From positions 62,001 to 126,000 of the forward strand of contig CAKTBG010000002.1 of the NCBI GenBank assembly GCA_934533135.1: DNA of 64,000 bases, written 5' to 3'. Shown piece by piece: positions 46,469 through 62,771 of the stretch; position 1 is the first letter of the stretch, and every line of letters starts with the position of its first letter. The DNA comes from an uncultured Faecalibacterium sp. GTDB taxonomy: Bacteria; Bacillota; Clostridia; Oscillospirales; Ruminococcaceae. Under the pieces are notes generated by a model. It saw only the letters and a list, made by a program, of their open reading frames with translations. It did no database searches and was not told where the DNA came from. A program made the position numbers and the translations under genes.

Positions 46469-49199
46469 ATTTCTATCCACGCTCCCCGCGAGGAGAGCGA
46501 CCTTCCGAATCCTGCTTGTAGCCGCCATTCACCCAGTCATTTCTATCCACGCTCCCCGCGAGGGGAGCGACGTAGATATGCCGCCCCTCCGCACGGGGCG
46601 TGGATAATTTCTATCCACGCTCCCCGCGAGGGGAGCGACAACACGCCCACACCGGCGTCATAGAGGTCAGACGCATTTCTATCCACGCTCCCCGCGAGGG
46701 GAGCGACTTTCACGGTGCCGATCCTCATGGTCGCGGTGATATTTCTATCCACGCTCCCCGCGAGGGGAGCGACAAAGCGCATCAACGCACTGGGGCAGAC
46801 CTATTCTATTTCTATCCACGCTCCCCGCGAGGGGAGCGACGTTTTGGCTCCGGGAAACGACGCCCGACCGCTGGAATTTCTATCCACGCTCCCCGCGAGG
46901 GGAGCGACCTGTTCCGTCGACTGTGCTATAACAGAGGCATCAAATTTCTATCCACGCTCCCCGCGAGGGGAGCGACGTGTGGCCCCAGCGTGGCCCCGGA
47001 GCCACACAAAAATTTCTATCCACGCTCCCCGCGAGGGGAGCGACATGAGCACGGTGGCGCGGCCAGCCGGACGGTCAATTTCTATCCACGCTCCCCGCGA
47101 GGGGAGCGACCTGATTGTGATTTCCGGTACTTCTTTCATCAGCATTTCTATCCACGCTCCCCGCGAGGGGAGCGACATCAAGGGCAGCGACATTGCGCCG
47201 CTGCCCCGATATTTCTATCCACGCTCCCCGCGAGGGGAGCGACCAAGATCGATCCAACGGATGTTTTCTATCTTGCAAAATTTCTATCCACGCTCCCCGC
47301 GAGGGGAGCGACAATGGCTGGCTGAACACATGGACATTGCCACAGAGATTTCTATCCACGCTCCCCGCGAGGGGAGCGACACAGTCACAATATTCTACGC
47401 AATATATTGGAATCATTTCTATCCACGCTCCCCGCGAGGGGAGCGACTCCGGGCATGGGATAAGGTGCGCAGTGAGTTTTTATTTCTATCCACGCTCCCC
47501 GCGAGGGGAGCGACTATAGGTCTGTTCATCAATGCTTGAAGTATATTCATTTCTATCCACGCTCCCCGCGAGGGGAGCGACAGTGCAGGTTGTGCATGAT
47601 TGTTTTTTGCTGTATATTTCTATCCACGCTCCCCGCGAGGGGAGCGACTAGCATAGATCTGTATTGTGGGATATTGGCTCATTATTTCTATCCACGCTCC
47701 CCGCGAGGGGAGCGACTCTGCTCTCTGGGCTATGACCAGCTTGCCCAAATATTTCTATCCACGCTCCCCGCGAGGGGAGCGACCGCAGTTGCCGTTTCCG
47801 CAGCAGTGGCAGCATCCGAATTTCTATCCACGCTCCCCGCGAGGGGAGCGACCTCCCCGCAGAGGTGATCTCACCCGTGCCGGGAAGATTTCTATCCACG
47901 CTCCCCGCGAGGGGAGCGACCGGTATTTGTGCTATACTATAATCACAGCAAGGGATTTCTATCCACGCTCCCCGCGAGGGGAGCGACAGACATCCCGGCG
48001 GGAAGCATAGCACGGCATTTTGATTTCTATCCACGCTCCCCGCGAGGGGAGCGACGGATATCAGACGTACCAATTCTTTTCGCAATACATTTCTATCCAC
48101 GCTCCCCGCGAGGGGAGCGACAGGGCAAGGCGTGGTTTTTGGCGGTAGCGGTATCTATTTCTATCCACGCTCCCCGCGAGGGGAGCGACCGTACCTACGA
48201 TATTTATTTTAACGTAAATACGATATTTCTATCCACGCTCCCCGCGAGGGGAGCGACAAGGATGGTATCTGGTTCAGTTTGAGCCAGAAGATATTTCTAT
48301 CCACGCTCCCCGCGAGGGGAGCGACTCGTTATAATGAGGTGGGCAAACCGGCTCAGAAATTTCTATCCACGCTCCCCGCGAGGGGAGCGACACATGACTG
48401 GCAAGAGTCATACTGACGCTGAGGCATTTCTATCCACGCTCCCCGCGAGGGGAGCGACGCAGAAATCAACGCATTACCCGTAAGAGCCTATGTATTTCTA
48501 TCCACGCTCCCCGCGAGGGGAGCGACGTTGAAAGTGTCTCCGGGCAACACTTCGTCAACGTATTTCTATCCACGCTCCCCGCGAGGGGAGCGACTGACCC
48601 GTCTTTGCACCGAAATTCGCTTGCTTTAATTTCTATCCACGCTCCCCGCGAGGGGAGCGACCCTGTCTGCCATATCCGCAGAGAGGACCAGAAGTATTTC
48701 TATCCACGCTCCCCGCGAGGGGAGCGACGCAACAGCACAAGCAAACGCAATCCAGCTAGCACATTTCTATCCACGCTCCCCGCGAGGGGAGCGACCACTT
48801 CAGAACAGGATTCCCGCCGATCACATTCCATTTCTATCCACGCTCCCCGCGAGGGGAGCGACCTGTACTGGCGGCTGTTCCGTGGATATCGAATGATTTC
48901 TATCCACGCTCCCCGCGAGGGGAGCGACCGCCGGGAGATCATCCCGAACACCCACCACAACACATTTCTATCCACGCTCCCCGCGAGGGGAGCGACGACA
49001 AGAAAAGAATAACGAACGACCGCTATTTATCATTTCTATCCACGCTCCCCGCGAGGGGAGCGACCGCCGTACTGACAATATGTAACGGTGTAACGCGGTA
49101 TTTCTATCCACGCTCCCCGCGAGGGGAGCGACAACGCGCCGGACGTTCCCGCCGTAAGGCAGAGGAATTTCTATCCACGCTCCCCGCGAGGGGAGCGAC
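46469..49199 (-). CRISPR. Type I-C CRISPR array, 41 repeats and 40 spacers
   Basis: I counted 41 repeats of 33 bp beginning at 46469, 46539, 46607 and then about every 67 bp to 49167. On the transcribed (minus) strand the repeat starts GTCGCTCCCC, forms a GCTCCCC-TCGC-GGGGAGC hairpin and ends GTGGATAGAAAT, a type I-C repeat. Spacers are 33-37 bp. Repeats are essentially identical except the one at 46469, which has AGGAGAG for AGGGGAG; this marks the old, leader-distal end, while new spacers enter at the right next to cas2. Reading frames through the array with recurring SIHAPREGSD-like peptides are artefacts. Confidence 0.99.
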
Positions 49200-49386
49200 A
49201 GCAAAAACAGAGAGGAAAATCCCTGCTTTTGTTTCATTATACAACACTCTGCACGAATTTGGAAGAATTGTTTTTACAAAAAGGAAAAAACTGGGAAAAT
49301 TCATGCAAAGGGGACCTGCCATACTGGTGCGAAGGGAACGAGAAAACGATGGGTACTTCACCTTCGCACGGGCTGGCAGGCGAGGG
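49200..49386 (-). promoter_or_regulatory. CRISPR leader with pre-crRNA promoter
   Basis: AT-rich stretch between cas2 and the first repeat. On the minus strand TATAAT lies at 49236-49241 with a weak TTCCAA-type -35 at 17 bp, so transcription would begin near 49229, about 30 nt before the first repeat. Integration signals for Cas1-Cas2 should lie in 49200-49260. Confidence 0.75.
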
Positions 49387-49677
49387 TTAAAAGAGCAGGA
49401 GACCATCCTGCGCAAAGGGCGGGTGAACGCCGACGTGTTCGACCTTGCTTTGGTAGTGGTTGCCCAGCTGATAGAAGCGCAGACTGTCCAGAGCGGGGTC
49501 GATGATCTCCGTCAGCTCAGCCTTAAGCAGAACAAACTGCGCGGCATCCAGCAGGCACTCGAAGACGGAGTTCTGGACACGCTGCCCATAGCTGACGCAT
49601 TTCTTGGCAACTTTCCGGAGCCGTTTGCGTCCGGCGGGGGTCTCAGTGTTGACATCGTAAGTGATCAGTACCAGCAT
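49387..49677 (-). CDS. cas2: CRISPR-associated endonuclease Cas2
   Basis: 96 residues, standard size. It begins MLVLITYDVNTETPAGRKRL with the beta-strand aspartate (YDV) of the Cas2 ferredoxin-like fold and the RRLRKVAKKC-type basic helix; VQNSVFEC is also conserved. Cas2 dimer bridges two Cas1 dimers to capture and insert new spacers at the leader end. Last gene of the operon, 9 bp after cas1 and directly before the leader. Confidence 0.97.
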   Translation of the reverse strand: MLVLITYDVNTETPAGRKRLRKVAKKCVSYGQRVQNSVFECLLDAAQFVLLKAELTEIIDPALDSLRFYQLGNHYQSKVEHVGVHPPFAQDGLLLF

Positions 49678-49686
49678 AGGCAGCCC

Positions 49687-50718
49687 TCATTTCCAGAAAA
49701 ACGGCGGATAAACGTCCATATCACCGCGCAATGTCCGCGCCAGAAGCAGTGCTTGCACATGAGGCACCAGCCCCCATTCGATCTTTTCTTTCAGGAATGG
49801 ATGGGTGATCTGCTCACGCTTTTTGTCCTGCCATGCACCGAGAAACGCTTTGCGCCCGGCATCCGTCAGGAGCACGGCTCCATTTTCCTGCTTCTCGAAG
49901 TGTTTGGGGGTGAGGATCTTCTGGTTGATGCAGGAGAGCACGAATCGGTCGGCAAAAACGGCACGCAATTCCTCCATCAAGTCGAGCGCGAGACTTCGTC
50001 GTCCGGGGCGGGCGCGGTGCAGAAAGCCAACATAGGGATCCAGCCCGACGCCGTTCAGCGCGGCAGCACAGTCGCTGGCAAGCAGGGAGTAGGCGAACGA
50101 CAACAACGCGTTCACGTTGTCCATGGGTGGGCGGCGGTTTCGCACCGTAAACGGAAAATCGTCGTGCTGCTGTAAGATCAGGTGATCGAAACAGTCGAAG
50201 TACCGTTGCGCAGCCTCACCCTCCAAGCCGCGCAGCTGATCCAGATCCTCGCAGCTCTCAAGCAGCGGCAGAGCTGCAGCCAGCTGCGCGCTGGTTCGCT
50301 TCAACTGCTCCACGGGCACCCGCTGTGGGTGATCCCGGGTGGCTCGCTCGAGTACCCACCGGGCATTGTAGACTTTTCCCAGCAGAAAGGACCGGGCATA
50401 CAGGCAGCTCTGCGCTTCGTTGTCGGCGATGCGGTACTGCGCCTGCCGGAGCAGAACATTTCCGCAGGGATCGCCGACGGTTCGGGCGAGAAATCGACCC
50501 TGCGGCGAATAAAATGCAAGGTCAATGCCGCGCGCAGCGCAGGCACCCATCAGAGCCGGACTTGCCCCGGCATAGGTGAAGCAGAGGATCCCTTGCAGAA
50601 GGTGAAGCGGTTTGCGGTTGATCTCCTGCTTCTGGCAGGAGATGACGACGTTTTCGTTGTCCAGCGAAAGATAGTAGGTTTCGGTGGTGACATAGAGGGT
50701 GTTCAGCAGCTGTTTCAT
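49687..50718 (-). CDS. cas1: CRISPR-associated integrase Cas1 (type I-C)
   Basis: 343 residues. It starts MKQLLNTLYVTTETYYLSLD, a typical I-C opening, followed by an N-terminal beta domain and helical catalytic domain with ALNGVGLDPYVGFLHRARPGR (catalytic histidine) and LALDLMEELRAVFADR (acidic residues). The upstream extension of the frame is out of the real gene: the ATG at 50718 overlaps the cas4 stop by four bases. Works with Cas2 in spacer integration. Confidence 0.97.
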   Translation of the reverse strand: MKQLLNTLYVTTETYYLSLDNENVVISCQKQEINRKPLHLLQGILCFTYAGASPALMGACAARGIDLAFYSPQGRFLARTVGDPCGNVLLRQAQYRIADNEAQSCLYARSFLLGKVYNARWVLERATRDHPQRVPVEQLKRTSAQLAAALPLLESCEDLDQLRGLEGEAAQRYFDCFDHLILQQHDDFPFTVRNRRPPMDNVNALLSFAYSLLASDCAAALNGVGLDPYVGFLHRARPGRRSLALDLMEELRAVFADRFVLSCINQKILTPKHFEKQENGAVLLTDAGRKAFLGAWQDKKREQITHPFLKEKIEWGLVPHVQALLLARTLRGDMDVYPPFFWK

Positions 50719-51392
50719 GGCGATTCCTCCGTCTGAGCCGCTTCGTCCAAGTAGGCACGGAGATAGGCTTTCGGGTCGGCGCGGCGGCAAAGCACCGGGA
50801 GACAAAGCTCTTTCATCGAACAGGCATTGCAATGTGCCCCGGGTTTGACTTTTGGGGTGTAGCCGCGGGCAAAGTATTGGTTCATCTCGTCGGCCATGGC
50901 CTGTGTTTTCTGCCGCAGCTCTGTCGTCAGGGGCACCAACTCGCGCCGCCGGGTTGCCTCGTAGAAAAGTGCGCCCTGCGGAATGTCGCACACCAGCATT
51001 TCTTCCAACGCCATGGCCTGCGCACAGAGCTGCAGCCGGTCGGCATCGTTGGCTTTGGTGCGTCCATGCTTGTACTCTACGGGCAGAGGCTTCCAACGTC
51101 CTTCAACGTTCTGCAGCGGGATCCCCTCCGGGTCGATCCGGAACTCCACCACGTCGCAGTCACCGCTCAGCCGCAGCCGATGGCTGACCACCTTCATCCC
51201 CCGTGTGAGGAGCAGATCGCCGCGCCGCTCGCTTTGCGTGGTATCGTGGCAGCGTTTGTGGTCAAGCCGCCCCGCGGCCGTGAGATGGTTCTCGACCCAT
51301 TGCTGCTCAAGATAATTCAAAGCCCACTGCCGTCGGCAAAAGCAGAAATGCTGGATGCCGGACATTTGCAGGTAGTCATCAGAATTCATCAT
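50715..51392 (-). CDS. cas4: CRISPR-associated exonuclease Cas4
   Basis: 225 residues. RecB-like nuclease with the Fe-S cysteines: one near the N-terminus (HFCFCRRQWAL, residues 16-20) and a C-terminal cluster HCNACSMKELCLPVLC near residue 195. The nuclease core shows GMKVVSHRLRLSGDCDVVEF and PVEYKHGRTKANDADRLQLCAQA (catalytic D/E-K). Cas4 trims prespacers and checks the PAM so spacers integrate in the right direction. Two adjacent ATGs (51392, 51389) overlap the cas7 stop. Confidence 0.96.
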   Translation of the reverse strand: MMNSDDYLQMSGIQHFCFCRRQWALNYLEQQWVENHLTAAGRLDHKRCHDTTQSERRGDLLLTRGMKVVSHRLRLSGDCDVVEFRIDPEGIPLQNVEGRWKPLPVEYKHGRTKANDADRLQLCAQAMALEEMLVCDIPQGALFYEATRRRELVPLTTELRQKTQAMADEMNQYFARGYTPKVKPGAHCNACSMKELCLPVLCRRADPKAYLRAYLDEAAQTEESP

Positions 51393-52215
51393 AGACTTCC
51401 GGCTTCAGGCCGTTCAATTCATCGCAGGAGATGTCGTAATCTTCAATAGAGTGGGGCGCATCGACTTTGGAGGCGATGTGCAGGCTGCGGTGAACTTTAG
51501 CCGAGGAATACTGCCCGGTTTTGCAGTTGTGCTCCCACCAGTACAGGCGCACTACTTCCATGCTGCCGTCAGGCCGCGCCGAAGAGCTGTCATTCTCAAA
51601 CAGTGTCAGGAGAGCCTGTTTGATGAGGTCTGCATCCTCCGCTGAAAAACCGGTCTTTTCGGCAAGTTGGCAGTTGATGCTGCCATAGGTGGAGTAAACG
51701 CCGAAATCGACCCGATGCTTCATGCCCATAGTGTCGCTGGACTTTTTGGAACCGGTCACACTGTTGACGCTTTTGGTGATCTGGATGCTGCTGGTCTCGA
51801 TGGGATCCACACTGAATGCCGGATGGATGGAGACCGGGCCGCGCACACCGATGGAAACATCATCGCCCTTGAACGCAAACACCTGACCGAAGCCGCGAAC
51901 GTCCAGCCATTTCTCGCAGGCAATCTGTGCATAAACAGAAGCGTTTTTCTCTTTTTTCAACGCAGGAACGGCGTCGGCACGGTCTTTCAGACTCTTGTAT
52001 CCGTCGTTGCAGCGGTCATCCGACTGCACAAAGATAGGAGCTCCCAGATCCATCAGCCGATTGCGGATCTTCCGCTTGAGGCAGACATCCGAGATCTCGC
52101 CGTAGCCCTCATACGTTTCGCGGGGACGGTTGCCGTTCAGAGGGTCGCCGTTGGGGTTGGCATGGGTGACGGTAAAGATCAGGGCAAAGTCGATTTTGTG
52201 ATTCAGAGCAGCCAT
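51379..52215 (-). CDS. cas7c: Type I-C Cascade backbone protein Cas7c (Csd2)
   Basis: 278 residues. Csd2/Csh2-type opening KIDFALIFTVTHANPNGDPLNGNRPR and FGQVFAFKGDDVSIGVRGPVS are diagnostic (quoted in parts), as is the KSVNSVTGSKKSSDTMGMKHRVDFGVY thumb segment. About seven copies coat the crRNA spacer in the effector complex. AGGAGG precedes the ATG at 52215. Overlaps cas4 by up to 14 bp. Confidence 0.96.
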   Translation of the reverse strand: MAALNHKIDFALIFTVTHANPNGDPLNGNRPRETYEGYGEISDVCLKRKIRNRLMDLGAPIFVQSDDRCNDGYKSLKDRADAVPALKKEKNASVYAQIACEKWLDVRGFGQVFAFKGDDVSIGVRGPVSIHPAFSVDPIETSSIQITKSVNSVTGSKKSSDTMGMKHRVDFGVYSTYGSINCQLAEKTGFSAEDADLIKQALLTLFENDSSSARPDGSMEVVRLYWWEHNCKTGQYSSAKVHRSLHIASKVDAPHSIEDYDISCDELNGLKPEVYDEF

Positions 52216-52230
52216 TGTAAATTCCTCCTG

Positions 52231-54195
52231 TTATACATTGCTTTTCGTTGTGGTTTCGGGATTCTTGTAGGCCTCATTTTCGCGGCGGAACTCCCGCAGC
52301 TGGGTGGCGTAGCCCAGCAGATACAACTCGTTCAAGGGCTTATTCGTGAACTCCGACCCGAGTTCGGCAATCAGATCCAGCATCTGGTCGTATCGTTTGG
52401 TGCTGCCGGCTTTGGCTCGGATGCGGTTCAGATAGGGGGCAAGCTTTTCCTGTAGAAGAAGGGTCGTTTTAGCCGGATGCTGGACGAAAACGACCTGCAG
52501 CCGTTCGGCGTTGGTGGTGCGTTTGTCATCCATGGTAAGGTTTTGTGCATAGCGTTCGGTCTGCTCTGCACAGGCAAGGATCTGACCGAACACAAAGTCA
52601 CGTCCGCGCGGAAGATTTTTGTCGTTGCTGCTGTAGTCCATCTTATAAGTAACTCCTTTCGAGCGTGAATGGTATCCGCGGATCAGCGCACAGGCGATGC
52701 TGCGGGTCTTGCGGGCTTCCCACGGTTCCAAGGCGACCGCGTTTGTGGCGCGGCGAACGGTGTTCAGCACCAGATCATAGGGCAGGGGCTTGCGTTCAAC
52801 GATGCAGGGAACGAGGCGTTCCAAAGTCTGCTGCTTGAGTTTCTGATCGACCTTTTCCCCATAGGCAGCTTTGGCAATATCCTCCGGGCTGGGGGCACCG
52901 ACAAACGAAATGTGGATCATTTTCGGCTTTTTGTCTGGTGGTGGATCCTTTTCAGCGATAACACGGTAATCCAGCTGCCACGCGAAAGTTTCGTGCCAGT
53001 TCACCACGTTGCCCAGCAGCCGGGAACCGCTCAGCTCCTGATAATACCGAACCGAAAGCCGCCCTGCGGTGGCGGAATCAAGGATCATGACGGAAAGCTG
53101 AGAAGTGTCGGTCAACTTCGCCCGATATCCCTGAATGGCGTGATTGAATTGCTTGGCAACGGCTTCTCGGGTGGACGCGCCCAGCACCGGTGCAAACTGG
53201 GAACTGTCAATGTCGTCCTCGTCGTCTACCGGAGCGGATTGTGCCATGTCGTAGCTGTCGTCGCCGAGTTTTGGAACCGGTTCATTCCGGGTGCCCCAGA
53301 CAAGGATGGTTTCGTCGCCGCACTGCGTGCCCTGTTTGCTGATAAGCCAGCGGAGTGCATTGTGGGTTTCCTGCGTGGTGCGATATCCGATGGACAACGC
53401 CTGCTCTGCATTGGAAAAACGTCCACGGAATGTAAAACCGGTTTTATCGTTGCTCGAAATCAGCTTTGCGCCATCGCCGGGATTCCGGATCTTTTTCGGG
53501 CTGAGAGCCGAAAGCGGAACTTTCTGCCCCAGAACCGTGCAGTAATCCACATCGGTCAGCTGCGTTTCGTAGAAATCCAACCAACGGTTCCAGATGTTGG
53601 GGTCCGACCAGAGATCGTCGTTTCCGACTCGGAAACGGACGAAGGCCTCTGTTTGGTCACCGTTCATGATGGAGGAAACAATGAGTGGTTCGGTGCCTTT
53701 TACACCGATGTATTTTGTTGGAAGTTTTCCGGATTCATCTGTGAAGAGAATGCCTTTCTGGATCAAATCGGGGATTAAAGTGCCTTTTTCCAAATAGGTC
53801 AAAACATTACAGACCAGTGGATGGGAGAAGGGAGAATGACACCATGCAGAGAGTTGCTCATGATAAATATCCCAGCCAGAATCTTTGGAACCGCCATATT
53901 CCTTGTAGTTGGAAGCGATATACTGAAGCTTATCGGCCAGAGCATGAGGATTGACATGAGTGCGGGATGCGGATTCCTCTGTGCAAGGAACAATTGTGGT
54001 AGATTCATTTTTGCGAAGAATAAACGCCGTCACAAAATTGCCTTGTTCATCAAGCTCGACTTGAATGTTTGCCTGCTGGGTCGTATGCCCGACCGGGAAC
54101 AGGGGAACCTGCCGGGCAACTTGTTTTCCAATCAGATCCGGCTCGGTTTGGCGGATGTATTCATAGGTTTGGTAGCAGCGTTCCAGCCAGCTCAT
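52231..54195 (-). CDS. cas8c: Type I-C Cascade large subunit Cas8c (Csd1)
   Basis: 654 residues, normal for Csd1. N-terminal LERCYQTYEYIRQTEPDLIG and VELDEQGNFVTAFILRK strands, FSNAEQALSIGYRTTQETHNALRWLISKQG in the middle (quoted as parts), and a helical C-terminal half that in I-C systems also yields an internal Cas11c small subunit by internal translation. Cas8c recognises the PAM and recruits Cas3. The C-terminal region from about residue 500 (SIACALIRGYHSRSKGVTYK onward) could carry such an internal start, not verified. Four-base ATGA overlap with cas5c. Confidence 0.95.
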   Translation of the reverse strand: MSWLERCYQTYEYIRQTEPDLIGKQVARQVPLFPVGHTTQQANIQVELDEQGNFVTAFILRKNESTTIVPCTEESASRTHVNPHALADKLQYIASNYKEYGGSKDSGWDIYHEQLSAWCHSPFSHPLVCNVLTYLEKGTLIPDLIQKGILFTDESGKLPTKYIGVKGTEPLIVSSIMNGDQTEAFVRFRVGNDDLWSDPNIWNRWLDFYETQLTDVDYCTVLGQKVPLSALSPKKIRNPGDGAKLISSNDKTGFTFRGRFSNAEQALSIGYRTTQETHNALRWLISKQGTQCGDETILVWGTRNEPVPKLGDDSYDMAQSAPVDDEDDIDSSQFAPVLGASTREAVAKQFNHAIQGYRAKLTDTSQLSVMILDSATAGRLSVRYYQELSGSRLLGNVVNWHETFAWQLDYRVIAEKDPPPDKKPKMIHISFVGAPSPEDIAKAAYGEKVDQKLKQQTLERLVPCIVERKPLPYDLVLNTVRRATNAVALEPWEARKTRSIACALIRGYHSRSKGVTYKMDYSSNDKNLPRGRDFVFGQILACAEQTERYAQNLTMDDKRTTNAERLQVVFVQHPAKTTLLLQEKLAPYLNRIRAKAGSTKRYDQMLDLIAELGSEFTNKPLNELYLLGYATQLREFRRENEAYKNPETTTKSNV

Positions 54196-54914
54196 TCACC
54201 ACTCACCTCCCGGTACAGTGCGTCGCAGCTCTGCAGATTTTGGTTCAGAACAAAGGATCTGGACTTCTGTTTTTTGATATCACGGATAACAGGGCAATTT
54301 TCCGGGCGGCAGAAGTCGATGACGCCGTTCTGCAGGACCGGATACCAGAACCGTTCCTGCATCGTGTCGGTACCGTTTTCGTCGGCATAGGTCAGGCCAT
54401 GAAGCATCAATCCAAGCGGAATCGAAGGTGTGGCATCGTAAGCACCGGTTCCTCCGCCGAATTCACACGGCTCAATGTAGCCCTGACACTCCCGGGTGCC
54501 GAGGAAAATATCCCGGCGGCCGCCGCGTTCCAGCATCCGCTTGGCAATCTGGTAATGTTTGTCCTCGTTTCGATCTTGCTCGAGGTCGGGTCGGTGCTCG
54601 TTCCATTCAAAGTGGGCTTCCACCTGATAGGAAACATTGGTCAGATAGGTGTAGATGGATAAGTCGTTTTTTCCATTGTTGTAGCAGATGGGGCGCACAC
54701 CCTTGGATTGCGTTTCAATGGGATTCAAAATGCGGATTCGGTCGATCACCCAAATGAAGGTTGGCTTCCAGTAACAGCTTTCCAGAATTCCCTTCAAAGC
54801 CTGATAGGTTGGGACTGGATAGCTGCACTTCTCGCCGCCGACACGGGTGATCGGGTCGCTGAACAGTGCGTGGCGGCCGAAAAGGTGCAGCGTGAGGGTG
54901 TTTCGGTAACGCAA
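54192..54914 (-). CDS. cas5c: Type I-C Cas5c (Cas5d), crRNA-processing endonuclease
   Basis: 240 residues. It opens RNTLTLHLFGRHALFSDPITRVGGEKCSYPVPTYQA (in parts), the Cas5 RAMP pattern, with YKGI-type ALKGILESCYWKP. In type I-C there is no Cas6, and Cas5c itself cuts pre-crRNA at the repeat hairpin base, leaving an 11 nt 5' handle. The start is TTG at 54914 behind AGGAGG with seven bases spacing. Because Cas5c reads hairpin base and 3' tail, it should also process the divergent repeat at 57471. Confidence 0.95.
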   Translation of the reverse strand: MRYRNTLTLHLFGRHALFSDPITRVGGEKCSYPVPTYQALKGILESCYWKPTFIWVIDRIRILNPIETQSKGVRPICYNNGKNDLSIYTYLTNVSYQVEAHFEWNEHRPDLEQDRNEDKHYQIAKRMLERGGRRDIFLGTRECQGYIEPCEFGGGTGAYDATPSIPLGLMLHGLTYADENGTDTMQERFWYPVLQNGVIDFCRPENCPVIRDIKKQKSRSFVLNQNLQSCDALYREVSGE

Positions 54915-54935: not shown

Positions 54936-57341
54936 TTAGTAGATCATGAGCTCCGGCGGATGTGGATCCAATTGAAAGCCCTTGATATCGTCATAATAGC
55001 GGGGATCCAGAACAAAAACAGCACCTCCGACAGCTGTGGAAAGCGCACCATCCCGGGAAAGTGCAAGAAACTCGTTGTGATATAGGCCAATGGTGTAATG
55101 CTGCGCCTCACGGAGCAATGCCGCGGTGGGTCGATCGGTCGAGAGCAGCTGTGTAACCAGCTCTTGGCCGTTTTTGCCGTAGGGAACAACAGCCGGTGTG
55201 GTGTCAGAGTCCAGTGCGCGAAAAGCGGCTTCTGCCGTACCGAATGCCTGCCGGAGTTCCACTTTGGCAAACGGTGCGCTGTGCAGATCAATGTAGGCGG
55301 TGACGCCGGGCTTGTTTTCACTGAACAGATCCAGCAAAGTCCAGCCGTTTTTTAGCGGAGCCTGCATGGTGGTCTGCTGGTGAGACTCGGCGTAGAAAAG
55401 CGCATAATAGGCTTGGATGGACGCAGGATCCAGCAGGTCGGCGTCTGGAGAAAGTTGGTGCAGCAGACGTTGGGTGGCACGGCGACCCTCGTCGAGGTCG
55501 GCCAGCTGCTCCAGATGCTCTTCGGTAGGAGCACAGGGCACCAGATAGACGGATCGGCAGTCCGTTTCGCCGTGACGGTTGCATCGGCCGGCCGCCTGTG
55601 CTACACTGGGGAGGCCAGCCATGCTCCGGATCACGCAGTCGAAGCTCAGATCCACACCGGCCTCGATCAGCTGAGTGCTGACGCAGACCAGCTTTTGAGT
55701 GGAATGCGGATCGTCCAGCCGTTTTTTGATTTGGTCAAGGACGTCCAGCCGGTGCTGCGGGCAAAGATGGGTCGTCAGGCAGTAGAGCAGGACATCCGGT
55801 TCTAGCTGCTCACGGAGAAGATCGTAGACGCGCTCTACAACGGCGCGGGTGTTAAAGATCAGCAGGATCGTGTCGTTGTTCCGCAGTTTCTCCTGCGTCA
55901 ACGCAGCAAAATCGGCGGAAGAGTAGCCACCCTCAGAGGAAAGCGGTACGATTCGAGTCCGCTTGAACTGCTCGAATCGCTGCGCGTAGTCGGGCACAAG
56001 GTCTTTCGGCTCCGAAAAGTGCAGCGGATAGGCCAGCTGTTCCAAAGCAGGCTGGGTGGCGGTGCAGAGAATGACTGTGCAGCCCATCCCGTAGGCCAGC
56101 AAGTTGACGGCAAGGTTGAACAGATAAGTGTGACAGGTGGGGAGAGACTGCACCTCATCGAAGAAGAGCACCGAGTTGGCAAGGGCAGGGAACCGCCGGG
56201 CATTCCGCCGTGGAGCCGAAAATAAGGTGTTCAGAAATTGTACCATTGTGGTCGCAATGAACGGCACACCCTGCCAACGCTGTGTGAAGGGGAGAAGAGC
56301 TTCGTGCTCTTCTTCGTCCTGAAGTACATCTGAGTGGTGCTCCAACACATAGCTCTTATCGCCGAGGGCAGCACGGAAGCACTCTGTGTTCTGCCCGATG
56401 ATGGAACGGTAAGGTGCAAAGTAGAAAATGTGGGCCGCATGGGTCTGCTCGGCGGCGTGGATACAGTAGCGCAGGCCAGAGTAGGTTTTGCCGCCGCCGG
56501 TTGGAACATAGAGGCGGTAAATGCCGGGTCTGGCCGTTTGCCCGGCGGCTTTGCATTGTTCGGAAATCTCACTGCGCAGGATGTCAATGGACCGCAGGGC
56601 CGGAAGATTTTGAAGATAACGTTCCACATTCTCCCGCAGGGTCGTCCACGAAGGAAGTTCCGGTTCCGGCTGCGGGCCGTTTTCAAAGCTGGCCGTGTCC
56701 GACCAGTCGGCATCGACCAATGCACCGAAAAGGAATCGTTGGACAAGACCCAGCATGAACTGCATCGTGCGGGCGGCTTCCGGACTTCCCGGCGGACTGA
56801 GCTGGTCGGACAAAGCACCCAGCTTGCGGTAGAGGGTCAGAACCTCTTTTGCAGCAAGTTCCATCTCGGCAGCGACTTCCTCTTCGGAAACGCATTGGGA
56901 AAAGAACTGTTCGCAGCTCTCTCGATAGAGCGGGTCGGCCTTTTCGGAGTACAATTTGTCCAACCATGGCTGACCTCCATCTTCGGGGGAATAGAGGTCG
57001 CACCGTGTTCCATGGTGGCACTCGATGGCAACGGCGGCAAATTGCGCGGCCAACCGGTAGGAGGATTTCTTGGCGTTTTTTCCGAAGGTTTCCCACAGAT
57101 ACCGTGCACCTGCACTGGAATGGTTCAGCTTTTCGCCAGTCCATTTACCTTTAAGATAAAGCTGAGGAAGATGGTGTGACTTGCCGGTGTCATGACACTG
57201 GCCGGTCACCCGCCCTAAATGTTCCAGACCGATCGTTCGGCAGAGATCACCGCAGAGCTGGGCAACGTTGCAAGAATGTTCTTTCAATGACTGAGTATGG
57301 GAATCATCGGTTTGGCTGCTATGGCCGATCAATGGCTCCAT
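54936..57341 (-). CDS. cas3: CRISPR-associated helicase-nuclease Cas3
   Basis: 801 residues. N-terminal HD nuclease domain (SLKEHSCNVAQLCGDLC, GQCHDTGKSHHLPQLY, then IECHHG) followed by SF2 helicase: VPTGGGKTYSGLRY (Walker A), VLFFDEVQSLP (motif II), CTATQPALEQL (motif III), VSTQLIEAGVDLSFD (V) and QAAGRCNRHGE (VI). Degrades target DNA after Cascade binding. The ATG at 57341 is chosen because GAGGTGG lies just upstream; the frame extends 25 codons further, into the promoter, and is not used. First gene of the cas operon. Confidence 0.97.
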   Translation of the reverse strand: MEPLIGHSSQTDDSHTQSLKEHSCNVAQLCGDLCRTIGLEHLGRVTGQCHDTGKSHHLPQLYLKGKWTGEKLNHSSAGARYLWETFGKNAKKSSYRLAAQFAAVAIECHHGTRCDLYSPEDGGQPWLDKLYSEKADPLYRESCEQFFSQCVSEEEVAAEMELAAKEVLTLYRKLGALSDQLSPPGSPEAARTMQFMLGLVQRFLFGALVDADWSDTASFENGPQPEPELPSWTTLRENVERYLQNLPALRSIDILRSEISEQCKAAGQTARPGIYRLYVPTGGGKTYSGLRYCIHAAEQTHAAHIFYFAPYRSIIGQNTECFRAALGDKSYVLEHHSDVLQDEEEHEALLPFTQRWQGVPFIATTMVQFLNTLFSAPRRNARRFPALANSVLFFDEVQSLPTCHTYLFNLAVNLLAYGMGCTVILCTATQPALEQLAYPLHFSEPKDLVPDYAQRFEQFKRTRIVPLSSEGGYSSADFAALTQEKLRNNDTILLIFNTRAVVERVYDLLREQLEPDVLLYCLTTHLCPQHRLDVLDQIKKRLDDPHSTQKLVCVSTQLIEAGVDLSFDCVIRSMAGLPSVAQAAGRCNRHGETDCRSVYLVPCAPTEEHLEQLADLDEGRRATQRLLHQLSPDADLLDPASIQAYYALFYAESHQQTTMQAPLKNGWTLLDLFSENKPGVTAYIDLHSAPFAKVELRQAFGTAEAAFRALDSDTTPAVVPYGKNGQELVTQLLSTDRPTAALLREAQHYTIGLYHNEFLALSRDGALSTAVGGAVFVLDPRYYDDIKGFQLDPHPPELMIY

Positions 57342-57360
57342 GAAATCCACCTCTACTTTT

Positions 57361-57395
57361 ACTTTTAATGCTTTAACTACTGACGTAAGAATATC
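57361..57395 (+). promoter_or_regulatory. Predicted Cascade target site in the cas promoter
   Basis: Starting at 57361, 14 of 15 bases equal the pseudo-spacer starting at 57510, with TTT just 5' (57358-57360) in the PAM position; type I-C canonical PAM is TTC. A full 35 bp footprint would cover the predicted cas transcription start and the -10 box (57388-57393). Confidence 0.7.
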
Positions 57396-57416
57396 ACCGA
57401 GGATGTGAAATGTCAA
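57388..57416 (-). promoter_or_regulatory. cas operon promoter
   Basis: On the minus strand TTGACA (57411-57416, perfect) and TATTCT (57388-57393) are 17 bp apart. Transcription should begin near 57380, about 40 nt before the cas3 ATG. Confidence 0.8.
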
Positions 57417-57435: not shown

Positions 57436-57464
57436 TTGATTTTTTTGGAAGAACCGCCTATACT
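57436..57464 (+). promoter_or_regulatory. Promoter of the crRNA-like regulatory RNA
   Basis: TTGATT (57436-57441) and TATACT (57459-57464), 17 bp apart. The expected start is 57471, which is the first base of the divergent repeat. It is divergent from the cas promoter, 19 bp separating the two -35 boxes. Confidence 0.75.
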
Positions 57465-57470
57465 GATACT

Positions 57471-57576
57471 GTCGCTTTCGGGAATGCCCCTAAAAGCGTG
57501 GATAGAAATACTTTTAATGCCTTATTTGGCAGAGAAGAAGCGGTGGAGTGAAAGCTCTGCCGCTTTTCTTCTGCCA
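57471..57576 (+). ncRNA. Putative CreR-type Cas-regulating crRNA-like RNA
   Basis: A 39 nt divergent repeat (57471-57509) keeps GTCGCT at its start and AGCGTGGATAGAAAT at its end, exactly as in the array, but the hairpin centre is replaced (TTCGGGAATGCCCC with GCTTT/AAAGC stem) and is six bases longer. The pseudo-spacer begins ACTTTTAATGCCTTA at 57510 and matches the cas promoter region. From 57528 GGCAGAGAAGAAGCGG pairs with CCGCTTTTCTTCTGCC (57560-57575), closing the RNA in a stable hairpin. Expected role: guide Cascade to repress the cas operon. Not a protein gene; no second repeat follows. Confidence 0.75.
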
Positions 57577-61292: not shown

Positions 61293-62771
61293 TTACAGGT
61301 TGGTGTAACCCATCAGGTAACGATCCACCTCGGCGGCGCAGTCGTGGCCTTCGCGCAGACCCCAGACCACAAGGCTCTGACCCCGGCGCATATCGCCGCA
61401 GGAGAAGACTTTCTCCACGTTGGTCTTGAAGTGGTCGGTGTCCACACAGCCGCGCTGGGTCAGCGCGACGCCGAAAGCATCGGCGACGTAGCTCTCACAG
61501 CCCACAAAACCGGCGGCAATAAAAGCCAGCTGGCAGTCATAAGTAAACTCTTCGCCGGTGGGCACCATGTTGGTGCGGCCGGTCTCCGGATCCCGCTCCG
61601 GCTTCAGATAGGAAATGACCGCACCGGTCAGGTTGCCGGCTTCGTCTTTCAGGAACTCCTTGACCGTGGTCTGGTAGACACGGGGATCCTTGTTGAACTT
61701 GGCAAGGCACTCGGTCTGGCCGTAATCCACCTTCAGCACCCGGGGATATTCCGGCCACGGGTTGGAGGCAGCGCGTTCCTTCGGGGGCTGGGGCATCATT
61801 TCCAAGGCCACCAGATCGGTGCAGCCCTGCCGAAGCGCGGTGCCCTGACAGTCGTTGCCGGTGTCGCCGCCGCCGATCACGAGGACGTTCTTGCCAGCGG
61901 CGTTGATGGCTCTGCCATCGGCAAAGCCGGAATCCAGCAGGCTCTTGGTGACGCTGGTGAGGTAATTGACCGCGAAGTGGACGCCGTTAGCATCCCGACC
62001 CGGAACGTTCAGGTCGCGTGCTTTCTTGGCACCGCAGCAGAGCACCACGGCGTCGTAGCCGTTCAGGATGCTTTCGGCATCCACCGCCCCGCCGATGTCC
62101 ATATTGGTGCGGAACTCCACACCCTCGGCCTGCATGATCTTGATGCGGCGGTCAATGACGGATTTCTCCAGCTTCATATTGGGGATGCCGTACATCAGCA
62201 GGCCGCCTACCCGGTCAGCCCGCTCAAAGACGGTGACGGCATGGCCGCGCTTGTTCAGGTATTCTGCCGCCGACAGACCCGACGGGCCGCTGCCGATGAC
62301 GGCCACGCTTTTGCCGGTGCGTGCCGGCGGCGGATCGGCATGGAGCCAGCCCTTGGCGTAGCCGGTCTCAATGATGGCGTGCTCGTTTTCCCGCACGGTC
62401 ACGCTGCTGCCGGTCACGTCGCCGCAGGTGCAGGCGGCTTCGCACAGGGCAGGGCAGACCCGGCTGGTGAACTCCGGGAAGCGGTTGGTGGCGCGCAGAC
62501 GATGCAGTGCCAGCTCCCACTTGCCCTGATAGACTAGCTCGTTCCACTCAGGGATCAGGTTGTTCAGCGGGCAGCCCGAGGCCATGCCGCCGATCATCAT
62601 GCCGGCCTGACAGAAGGGTACACCGCAGTCCATGCAGCGGGCAGCCTGTGTCTGCTGCTCCTCGCGGGAGAGCCAGACGTGAAACTCGTTGAAATTTTCG
62701 ATGCGCTCCAGCGGCGGAATATCCGAGCTGGTCTTGCGCGTGTAATCCATAAATCCGGTGATCTTACCCAT
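61293..62771 (-). CDS. gltD: Glutamate synthase small (beta) subunit
   Basis: 492 residues. N-terminal Fe-S cysteines (AARCMDCGVPFCQ, then GCPLNNLIPEWN, and CPALCEAACTCG), an FAD-binding VAVIGSGPSGLSAAEYLNKRGH and NADPH-binding VLVIGGGDTGNDCQGTA. It feeds electrons from NADPH to the large subunit. AGGGAGG precedes the ATG. It follows gltB by 12 bp; together they make glutamate from glutamine and 2-oxoglutarate. Confidence 0.96.
   Translation of the reverse strand: MGKITGFMDYTRKTSSDIPPLERIENFNEFHVWLSREEQQTQAARCMDCGVPFCQAGMMIGGMASGCPLNNLIPEWNELVYQGKWELALHRLRATNRFPEFTSRVCPALCEAACTCGDVTGSSVTVRENEHAIIETGYAKGWLHADPPPARTGKSVAVIGSGPSGLSAAEYLNKRGHAVTVFERADRVGGLLMYGIPNMKLEKSVIDRRIKIMQAEGVEFRTNMDIGGAVDAESILNGYDAVVLCCGAKKARDLNVPGRDANGVHFAVNYLTSVTKSLLDSGFADGRAINAAGKNVLVIGGGDTGNDCQGTALRQGCTDLVALEMMPQPPKERAASNPWPEYPRVLKVDYGQTECLAKFNKDPRVYQTTVKEFLKDEAGNLTGAVISYLKPERDPETGRTNMVPTGEEFTYDCQLAFIAAGFVGCESYVADAFGVALTQRGCVDTDHFKTNVEKVFSCGDMRRGQSLVVWGLREGHDCAAEVDRYLMGYTNL

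Follow-up and report, generated by a model that had tools for sequence, protein, structure and literature searches.

Why does a single, degenerate CRISPR repeat stand by itself upstream of cas3, on the strand opposite to the cas genes and away from the array? The question arose from one locus in the window, which is the whole stretch of 64,000 nucleotides analysed here. The minus strand of the window was found to carry a type I-C operon in the order cas3-cas5c-cas8c-cas7c-cas4-cas1-cas2, followed by an array (subtype assigned using NCBIfam). The array repeat, read as the reverse complement of the array copies, was the 33-nt sequence GTCGCTCCCCTCGCGGGGAGCGTGGATAGAAAT. The solitary element was flanked by cas3 on one side and by an amino acid carrier gene on the other. 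The coordinates of the locus and of the parts of the element are given in Table 1.

Table 1. Features of the type I-C locus and of the solitary element, in window coordinates
Feature	Position	Strand	Remarks
CRISPR array	46469..49199	-	41 repeats, 33 nt each
cas2	49387..49677	-	TIGR01573
ORF containing cas1	49687..51096	-	TIGR03640; Cas1 match at residues 129-468
cas4	50715..51392	-	TIGR00372
cas7c	51379..52215	-	TIGR02589
cas8c	52231..54195	-	TIGR01863
cas5c	54192..54914	-	TIGR01876
cas3	54936..57341	-	801 aa; first gene of the operon proposed to be regulated
Target PAM position	57358..57360	+	TTT
Psi-spacer target	57361..57375	+	begins 20 nt before the cas3 start codon
Predicted cas promoter	57388..57416	-	TTGACA, 17 nt, TATTCT, with TG before the -10; start expected near 57381
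Predicted element promoter	57436..57464	+	TTGATT, 17 nt, TATACT; 9 of 12 consensus bases; start site expected near 57471
Psi-repeat stem-loop	57471..57498	+	stem CGCTTT/AAAGCG directly before the 11-nt handle
5' handle UGGAUAGAAAU, 11 nt	57499..57509	+	same as the end of the array repeat
Psi-spacer seed	57510..57526	+	agrees with the cas upstream site at positions 1-15, except 12
Strong terminator-like hairpin	57527..57576	+	inner stem, then TTTTCTTCT

The element begins 130 nt from the cas3 start codon with a single degenerate I-C repeat of 39 nt (psi-repeat; 57471-57509, plus strand, opposite to cas3), GTCGCTTTCGGGAATGCCCCTAAAAGCGTGGATAGAAAT. Its first 6 and last 15 bases were identical to those of the array repeat while its centre was different, and it was six bases longer. 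When the 64-kb window was searched for the repeat tail AGCGTGGATAGAAAT with at most one mismatch, 42 copies were found, 41 of them in the array (46469-49181) and one at the element. Since a sigma-70-like promoter ends 6 nt before the psi-repeat, a transcript would be expected to start at about the first base of the psi-repeat. The putative handle length of 11 nt was set from the stem base and from the known processing of repeats by Cas5c. The hairpin at 57527-57576 was absent from the output of the terminator scan; the 120-nt stretch that includes it had a folding z of -4.4. An Rfam scan returned two matches, both well short of the gathering scores. In the IMG/VR viral_contigs, a 24-nt stretch spanning the element repeat and guide had no exact copy.

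The bases following the psi-repeat (psi-spacer, 57510-57524, ACTTTTAATGCCTTA) were identical to 57361-57375 (ACTTTTAATGCTTTA) at 14 of 15 positions; the sole mismatch was at position 12 and the match stopped after position 15. When the cas upstream region (130 nt) was dinucleotide-shuffled 20,000 times and both strands were read, a match of at least 14 of 15 turned up in 1 shuffle. No second site with two or fewer mismatches to the psi-spacer 15-mer was found on either strand of the 64-kb window, and one minus-strand site had three mismatches. Scored against the 500-nt region upstream of cas3, the psi-spacer reached 12.5, compared with 9 for the best of the 41 post-repeat array stretches and 7.5 for the next; the stretch 47501-49300 alone (24 array spacers) gave a best score of 7.5. 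The predicted cas promoter in the window is near-ideal by consensus, and the 33-nt protospacer with its PAM, spanning 57358 to about 57394, includes the predicted -10 box and the expected start site. The first-pass annotation of this DNA had described a repeat with kept I-C ends and a new centre, a 14 of 15 match with its mismatch at 12, its end after 15 and TTT at the PAM position, and a Cascade footprint over the predicted cas start site and -10 box. Comparison with the array repeat bore out the description of the repeat, recomputation confirmed every part of the match, and the predicted promoter (TTGACA-17-TATTCT, 57416-57388) is consistent with the footprint.

Cas3 loci for comparison were taken from genome_contigs, nearest-genus genomes, four families, viral contigs and plasmids. 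At the protein level, Cas3 homologues with 82-98% identity (P0001-P0003) were also found. A close-relative scan of genome_contigs gave no matches, and an alignment-based scan of the same collection supplied 80 loci, these being the best 80 of 515 relatives. Sampling of the order to which one genome (G001) belongs led to the nearest genus (G237), in which the protein encoded at 61293-62771 had a counterpart with 91% identity. IMG/VR scans yielded 4 distant Cas3 loci, and plasmid records yielded 3 (L199, L200 and L201); no repeat-like core was found upstream of cas3 in L199 or L200, and L201 was array-like. Altogether 201 loci had a Cas3 match and 199 of these reached the 5' part. After 12 loci without a start codon by the rule used and 2 with less than 150 nt upstream had been dropped, 185 remained, which were de-duplicated to 180. 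One locus treated below, L004 (copy L180), was among the 12 dropped and stands outside all counts. Six loci were set aside as array-like (L012, L014, L058, L079, L196 and L201).

A comparable element with a guide matching its own locus was present in 20 of the 180 de-duplicated cas3 upstream regions, the window included. Repeat-like cores outside arrays numbered 25, and 18 of these had an own-locus guide match at a score of at least 8.5. The seven under 8.5 were the second core in the window, the second in L070, two in L073, and one each in L057, L152 and L065. The PAM of the 18 core-found targets was TTC in 14, TTT in 3 and CTC in 1 (TTC or TTT in 17 of 18). Of the 36 mismatches in the 18 matches, 32 stood at positions 6, 12 and 18 (15, 14 and 3, respectively). 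The match score did not favour these positions. With L003, a near-duplicate of L002, removed, the counts were 30 of 34 sixth-position mismatches and 16 of 17 PAMs.

As a control, the guides of the 25 cores were scored against the other loci. A score of 8.5 was reached in 230 of 4473 trials, with a TTC or TTT PAM in 16 of the 230 and sixth-position mismatches making up 41 of 377. Scores of at least 11 were reached by cross-locus guides in 12 of the 4473 trials, so that the score alone is not decisive. When the array spacers of 15 loci were scored against their own cas3 upstream regions, 15 of 348 reached 8.5 and 1 of these 15 had a TTC or TTT PAM. An unbiased search was also made, in which GAAAN before the guide, a TTC or TTT PAM and at least 13 matches over 15 non-sixth positions (6 and 12 ignored) were required; 18 of 180 loci were positive, and none of 900 after shuffling. 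The core search had already picked up thirteen of these 18, and two were new (L034 and L184). Three further positives (L156, L083 and L178) were put down to hairpins or chance.

Eighteen of the 20 elements were divergent from cas3, while L060 and L185 were on the cas strand; at 10 of the 20 loci the guide sequence was that of the coding strand. Upstream of 19 of 20 elements there was a -10-like box of at least 5 of 6 bases, versus 31% of control positions. At the handle, 16 of 20 elements could form a helix with 6 pairs or more, versus 17% of control positions, the stem sequences being widely different. Guides and targets likewise varied between loci, apart from the near-duplicates L002 and L003. 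Among the 21 element or orphan-repeat loci besides the window (L004 and L152 included), a cas7c relative was present in 18, and in 17 of these 18 cas5c and cas8c were present as well. The sequence was missing or gave no match at L003, L009 and L069, and L177 was a distant variant in which no cas8c was detected. In 13 of 20 loci the footprint overlapped a promoter predicted on the cas strand, and in 5 others it came as near as 5 nt or less; the exceptions were L009 and L024. These promoters were picked by consensus from the three best candidates at each locus, uncalibrated against shuffles.

Several loci had features of their own. TTT occupied the PAM position in the window, in L004, L082 and L090 (Cas3 45-50% identical), and also in L034; TTC was found in L002/L003 and most others. 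L004, a further case beyond the 20, had a 15 of 17 match with mismatches at 3 and 12. The psi-repeat of L082 had A where its own array has T, and its non-sixth mismatches were at 9 and 15. L034 (Mediterraneibacter) had an unusual I-C handle, TGAGTTGAAA, common to the element and its own array. Among the elements listed, none had a longer unbroken match than L135, in which guide and target agreed at 17 of 17 positions, with a TTC PAM. At L024 (Pullulanibacillus pueri; about 333 to 178 nt before cas3) the target was far upstream, ahead of a 51-aa ORF; it did not overlap the three best predicted promoters, and the match was weak by its own shuffles (p 0.117). At L050 (Enterococcus termitis; about 254 to 84 nt before cas3) guide and target matched at 17 of 20 positions with mismatches only at 6, 12 and 18 and a TTC PAM. 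Between the L050 target and cas3 was a hydrophobic ORF of 56 aa with AAGGAG ahead of it, and the target was just after a promoter predicted for this ORF; its product may be a small membrane protein under repression by Cascade, akin to those of CreTA/CrePA.

The remaining 160 of the 180 loci had no element by the core search or the unbiased search. The genus of the nearest genome contributed one strong Cas3 relative, L084/L120 (G423, 62% identity), in which no element was found, and neither search found one in L001 (52% Cas3 identity). L152 (53% Cas3 identity) carried an orphan I-C repeat with a TATAAT box, a stem and a terminator-like hairpin; no match to its guide was found within 500 nt upstream of cas3, and its target may be elsewhere in the genome. 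Because elements were absent from 160 of 180 loci, L084 and L001 among them, and L152 had an orphan without a found target, the element has probably been gained, lost or re-targeted often.

From the sequence, it is very probable that the window element encodes a CreR-type regulatory RNA of the type I-C system, by which the expression of its own cas genes would be lowered. Such an autorepressor had been proposed in the first-pass annotation, which in advance had staked its reading on co-conservation of pseudo-spacer and promoter. That co-conservation was found, as own-locus partial matches in 20 of 180 loci despite differing sequences, and the match, the PAM and the sixth-position mismatch pattern across loci argue for the proposal. 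The RNA would be short, starting near 57471 and ending at the hairpin (57527-57576). The preserved stem and handle suggest that Cas5c would recognise the psi-repeat stem and leave the 11-nt handle. Cascade loaded with this RNA would then find the TTT-flanked site at 57361 and pair at positions 1-15, except for the flipped-out position 12. Bound over the cas start site and the -10 box, it would reduce transcription of cas3-5-8-7-4-1-2. Judging by known type I behaviour, the pairing would be too short for cleavage by Cas3, and binding only would be expected.

In the excerpts of PMC11127173 and PMC5904413, every sixth crRNA base is described as flipped out in Class 1 effectors. Pairing kept at positions 1-5 and 7-11 with drift at 6 and 12 is the pattern expected from selection for Cascade binding. 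For the I-E system of E. coli, the excerpted text of PMC5904413 reports that short-seed Cascade binding is inert for transcription and that 6 PAM-distal mismatches greatly reduce promoter repression; CreA and CreR in other subtypes act with limited complementarity, according to parts of PMC8501985 and PMC13131331. If cas repression depends on Cascade, free Cascade would set its own level. By analogy with CreR in other subtypes, surplus array crRNA or an anti-CRISPR may draw Cascade off the RNA, and cas expression would be released.

Other explanations were weighed against the same observations. The window alone might suggest an ordinary antisense RNA acting without Cascade on the 5' UTR of the cas3 mRNA, beside the ribosome site, since there the 15 matching nucleotides would be complementary to the predicted 5' UTR, at a distance of 20-34 nt from the start codon. 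The guides with coding-strand sequence (10 of 20) cannot pair with mRNA, however, so that antisense RNA cannot explain the element family; at L155 and L177 an antisense-oriented target is upstream of the predicted -35, and the kept CRISPR handle, the TTC and TTT PAMs and the mismatches at multiples of six would have no role in such pairing. We regard this explanation as highly improbable. An antitoxin of the CreA type, with the RNA directing Cascade against a toxin gene and not against cas, would have the same RNA design, and the hydrophobic ORF of L050 is placed as such a gene might be. Yet the target in the window is 20 nt from the cas3 start codon, with no cas-strand ORF of at least 25 codons between, and for this locus an antitoxin is scarcely credible.

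An equally faint chance was assigned to a solitary-repeat decoy (Racr-like) or an old-array relic with a promoter match by chance. Phages use solitary repeat units as anti-CRISPR RNAs (excerpt of PMC10651486), the solitary repeat of L152 has no found match, and the array spacer of the window that scored 9 did so against the same cas3 upstream region. Against this stand the rarity of the window match among shuffles, the PAM and sixth-position pattern over many loci, and the position of the site beside the cas genes with promoter-like boxes.

If the element is indeed a CreR-type autorepressor, some I-C loci would hold a built-in sensor of free Cascade, responsive to anti-CRISPRs. The cas promoters and guides would co-evolve under a sixth-position rule and would supply natural data on the minimal pairing needed for repression. 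The combination of an own-locus match, a PAM and mismatches at 6, 12 and 18 would be a simple search pattern for such RNAs in other type I genomes.

CreR, as described in the excerpted parts of PMC13131331 and PMC12737573, is a crRNA-like RNA with a guide partly complementary to the cas promoter, and in this the window element is alike: it is a repeat-like unit outside the array, adjoining the cas operon, with a guide partly complementary to the predicted cas promoter region and a PAM (TTT here; TTC is commoner in this set). Effector-dependent autorepression is proposed for the window element as it is for CreR. The available part of PMC13131331, citing Liu et al. 2023, names CreR in types I-B, I-E and V-A; the window element is of subtype I-C and outside this list, which is a list of cases and not a definition. 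Type I-C repeats were observed to be processed by Cas5c (Cas5d) and not by Cas6 (PMC11127173, in part), in which they differ from the CreR systems, and unlike CreR the window element has TTT at the PAM position and a psi-repeat that exceeds the array repeat by six bases. The literature search, to which the original CreR paper (which may list I-C) was out of reach, returned no report of CreR or of guide-RNA cas feedback for I-C. As the CreR mode is known and no I-C report was found, the I-C occurrence was taken as new; type I-C is among the commonest CRISPR subtypes (PMC7684278, in part). With somewhat better than even confidence, we propose that a solitary crRNA-like gene, rewritten from locus to locus for Cascade-guided cas repression, is a recurrent and undescribed layer of I-C regulation in Clostridia and Bacilli. 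Cascade would bind in at least two ways, one covering the start site and -10 box and the other abutting the -35; at some loci the design would be aimed at a small gene before cas3, as in Enterococcus termitis.

Racr RNA anti-CRISPRs also consist of a solitary CRISPR repeat unit, as here, but in the excerpt of PMC10651486 they are inhibitors encoded in viral genomes. The scaRNA of Francisella novicida Cas9 (PMC9458426, in part) is similar in its degenerate repeat, its 15 bp of complementarity and the repression of transcription by an active effector; it differs in its Class 2 effector and in its target, which is outside the cas locus. CreA of CreTA in haloarchaeal I-B systems (portions of PMC8501985 and PMC9458426) has a psi-repeat and a psi-spacer pairing at positions 1-5 and 7-11, as does the window element. 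From the same partial sources, CreA of H. hubeiense uses a TTC PAM like elements found here, and the guide of CreA of H. hispanica ends in a terminator and not in a second repeat, like the predicted end of the window element. The target of CreA is the promoter of a toxin gene, whereas that of the window element would be the cas promoter itself.
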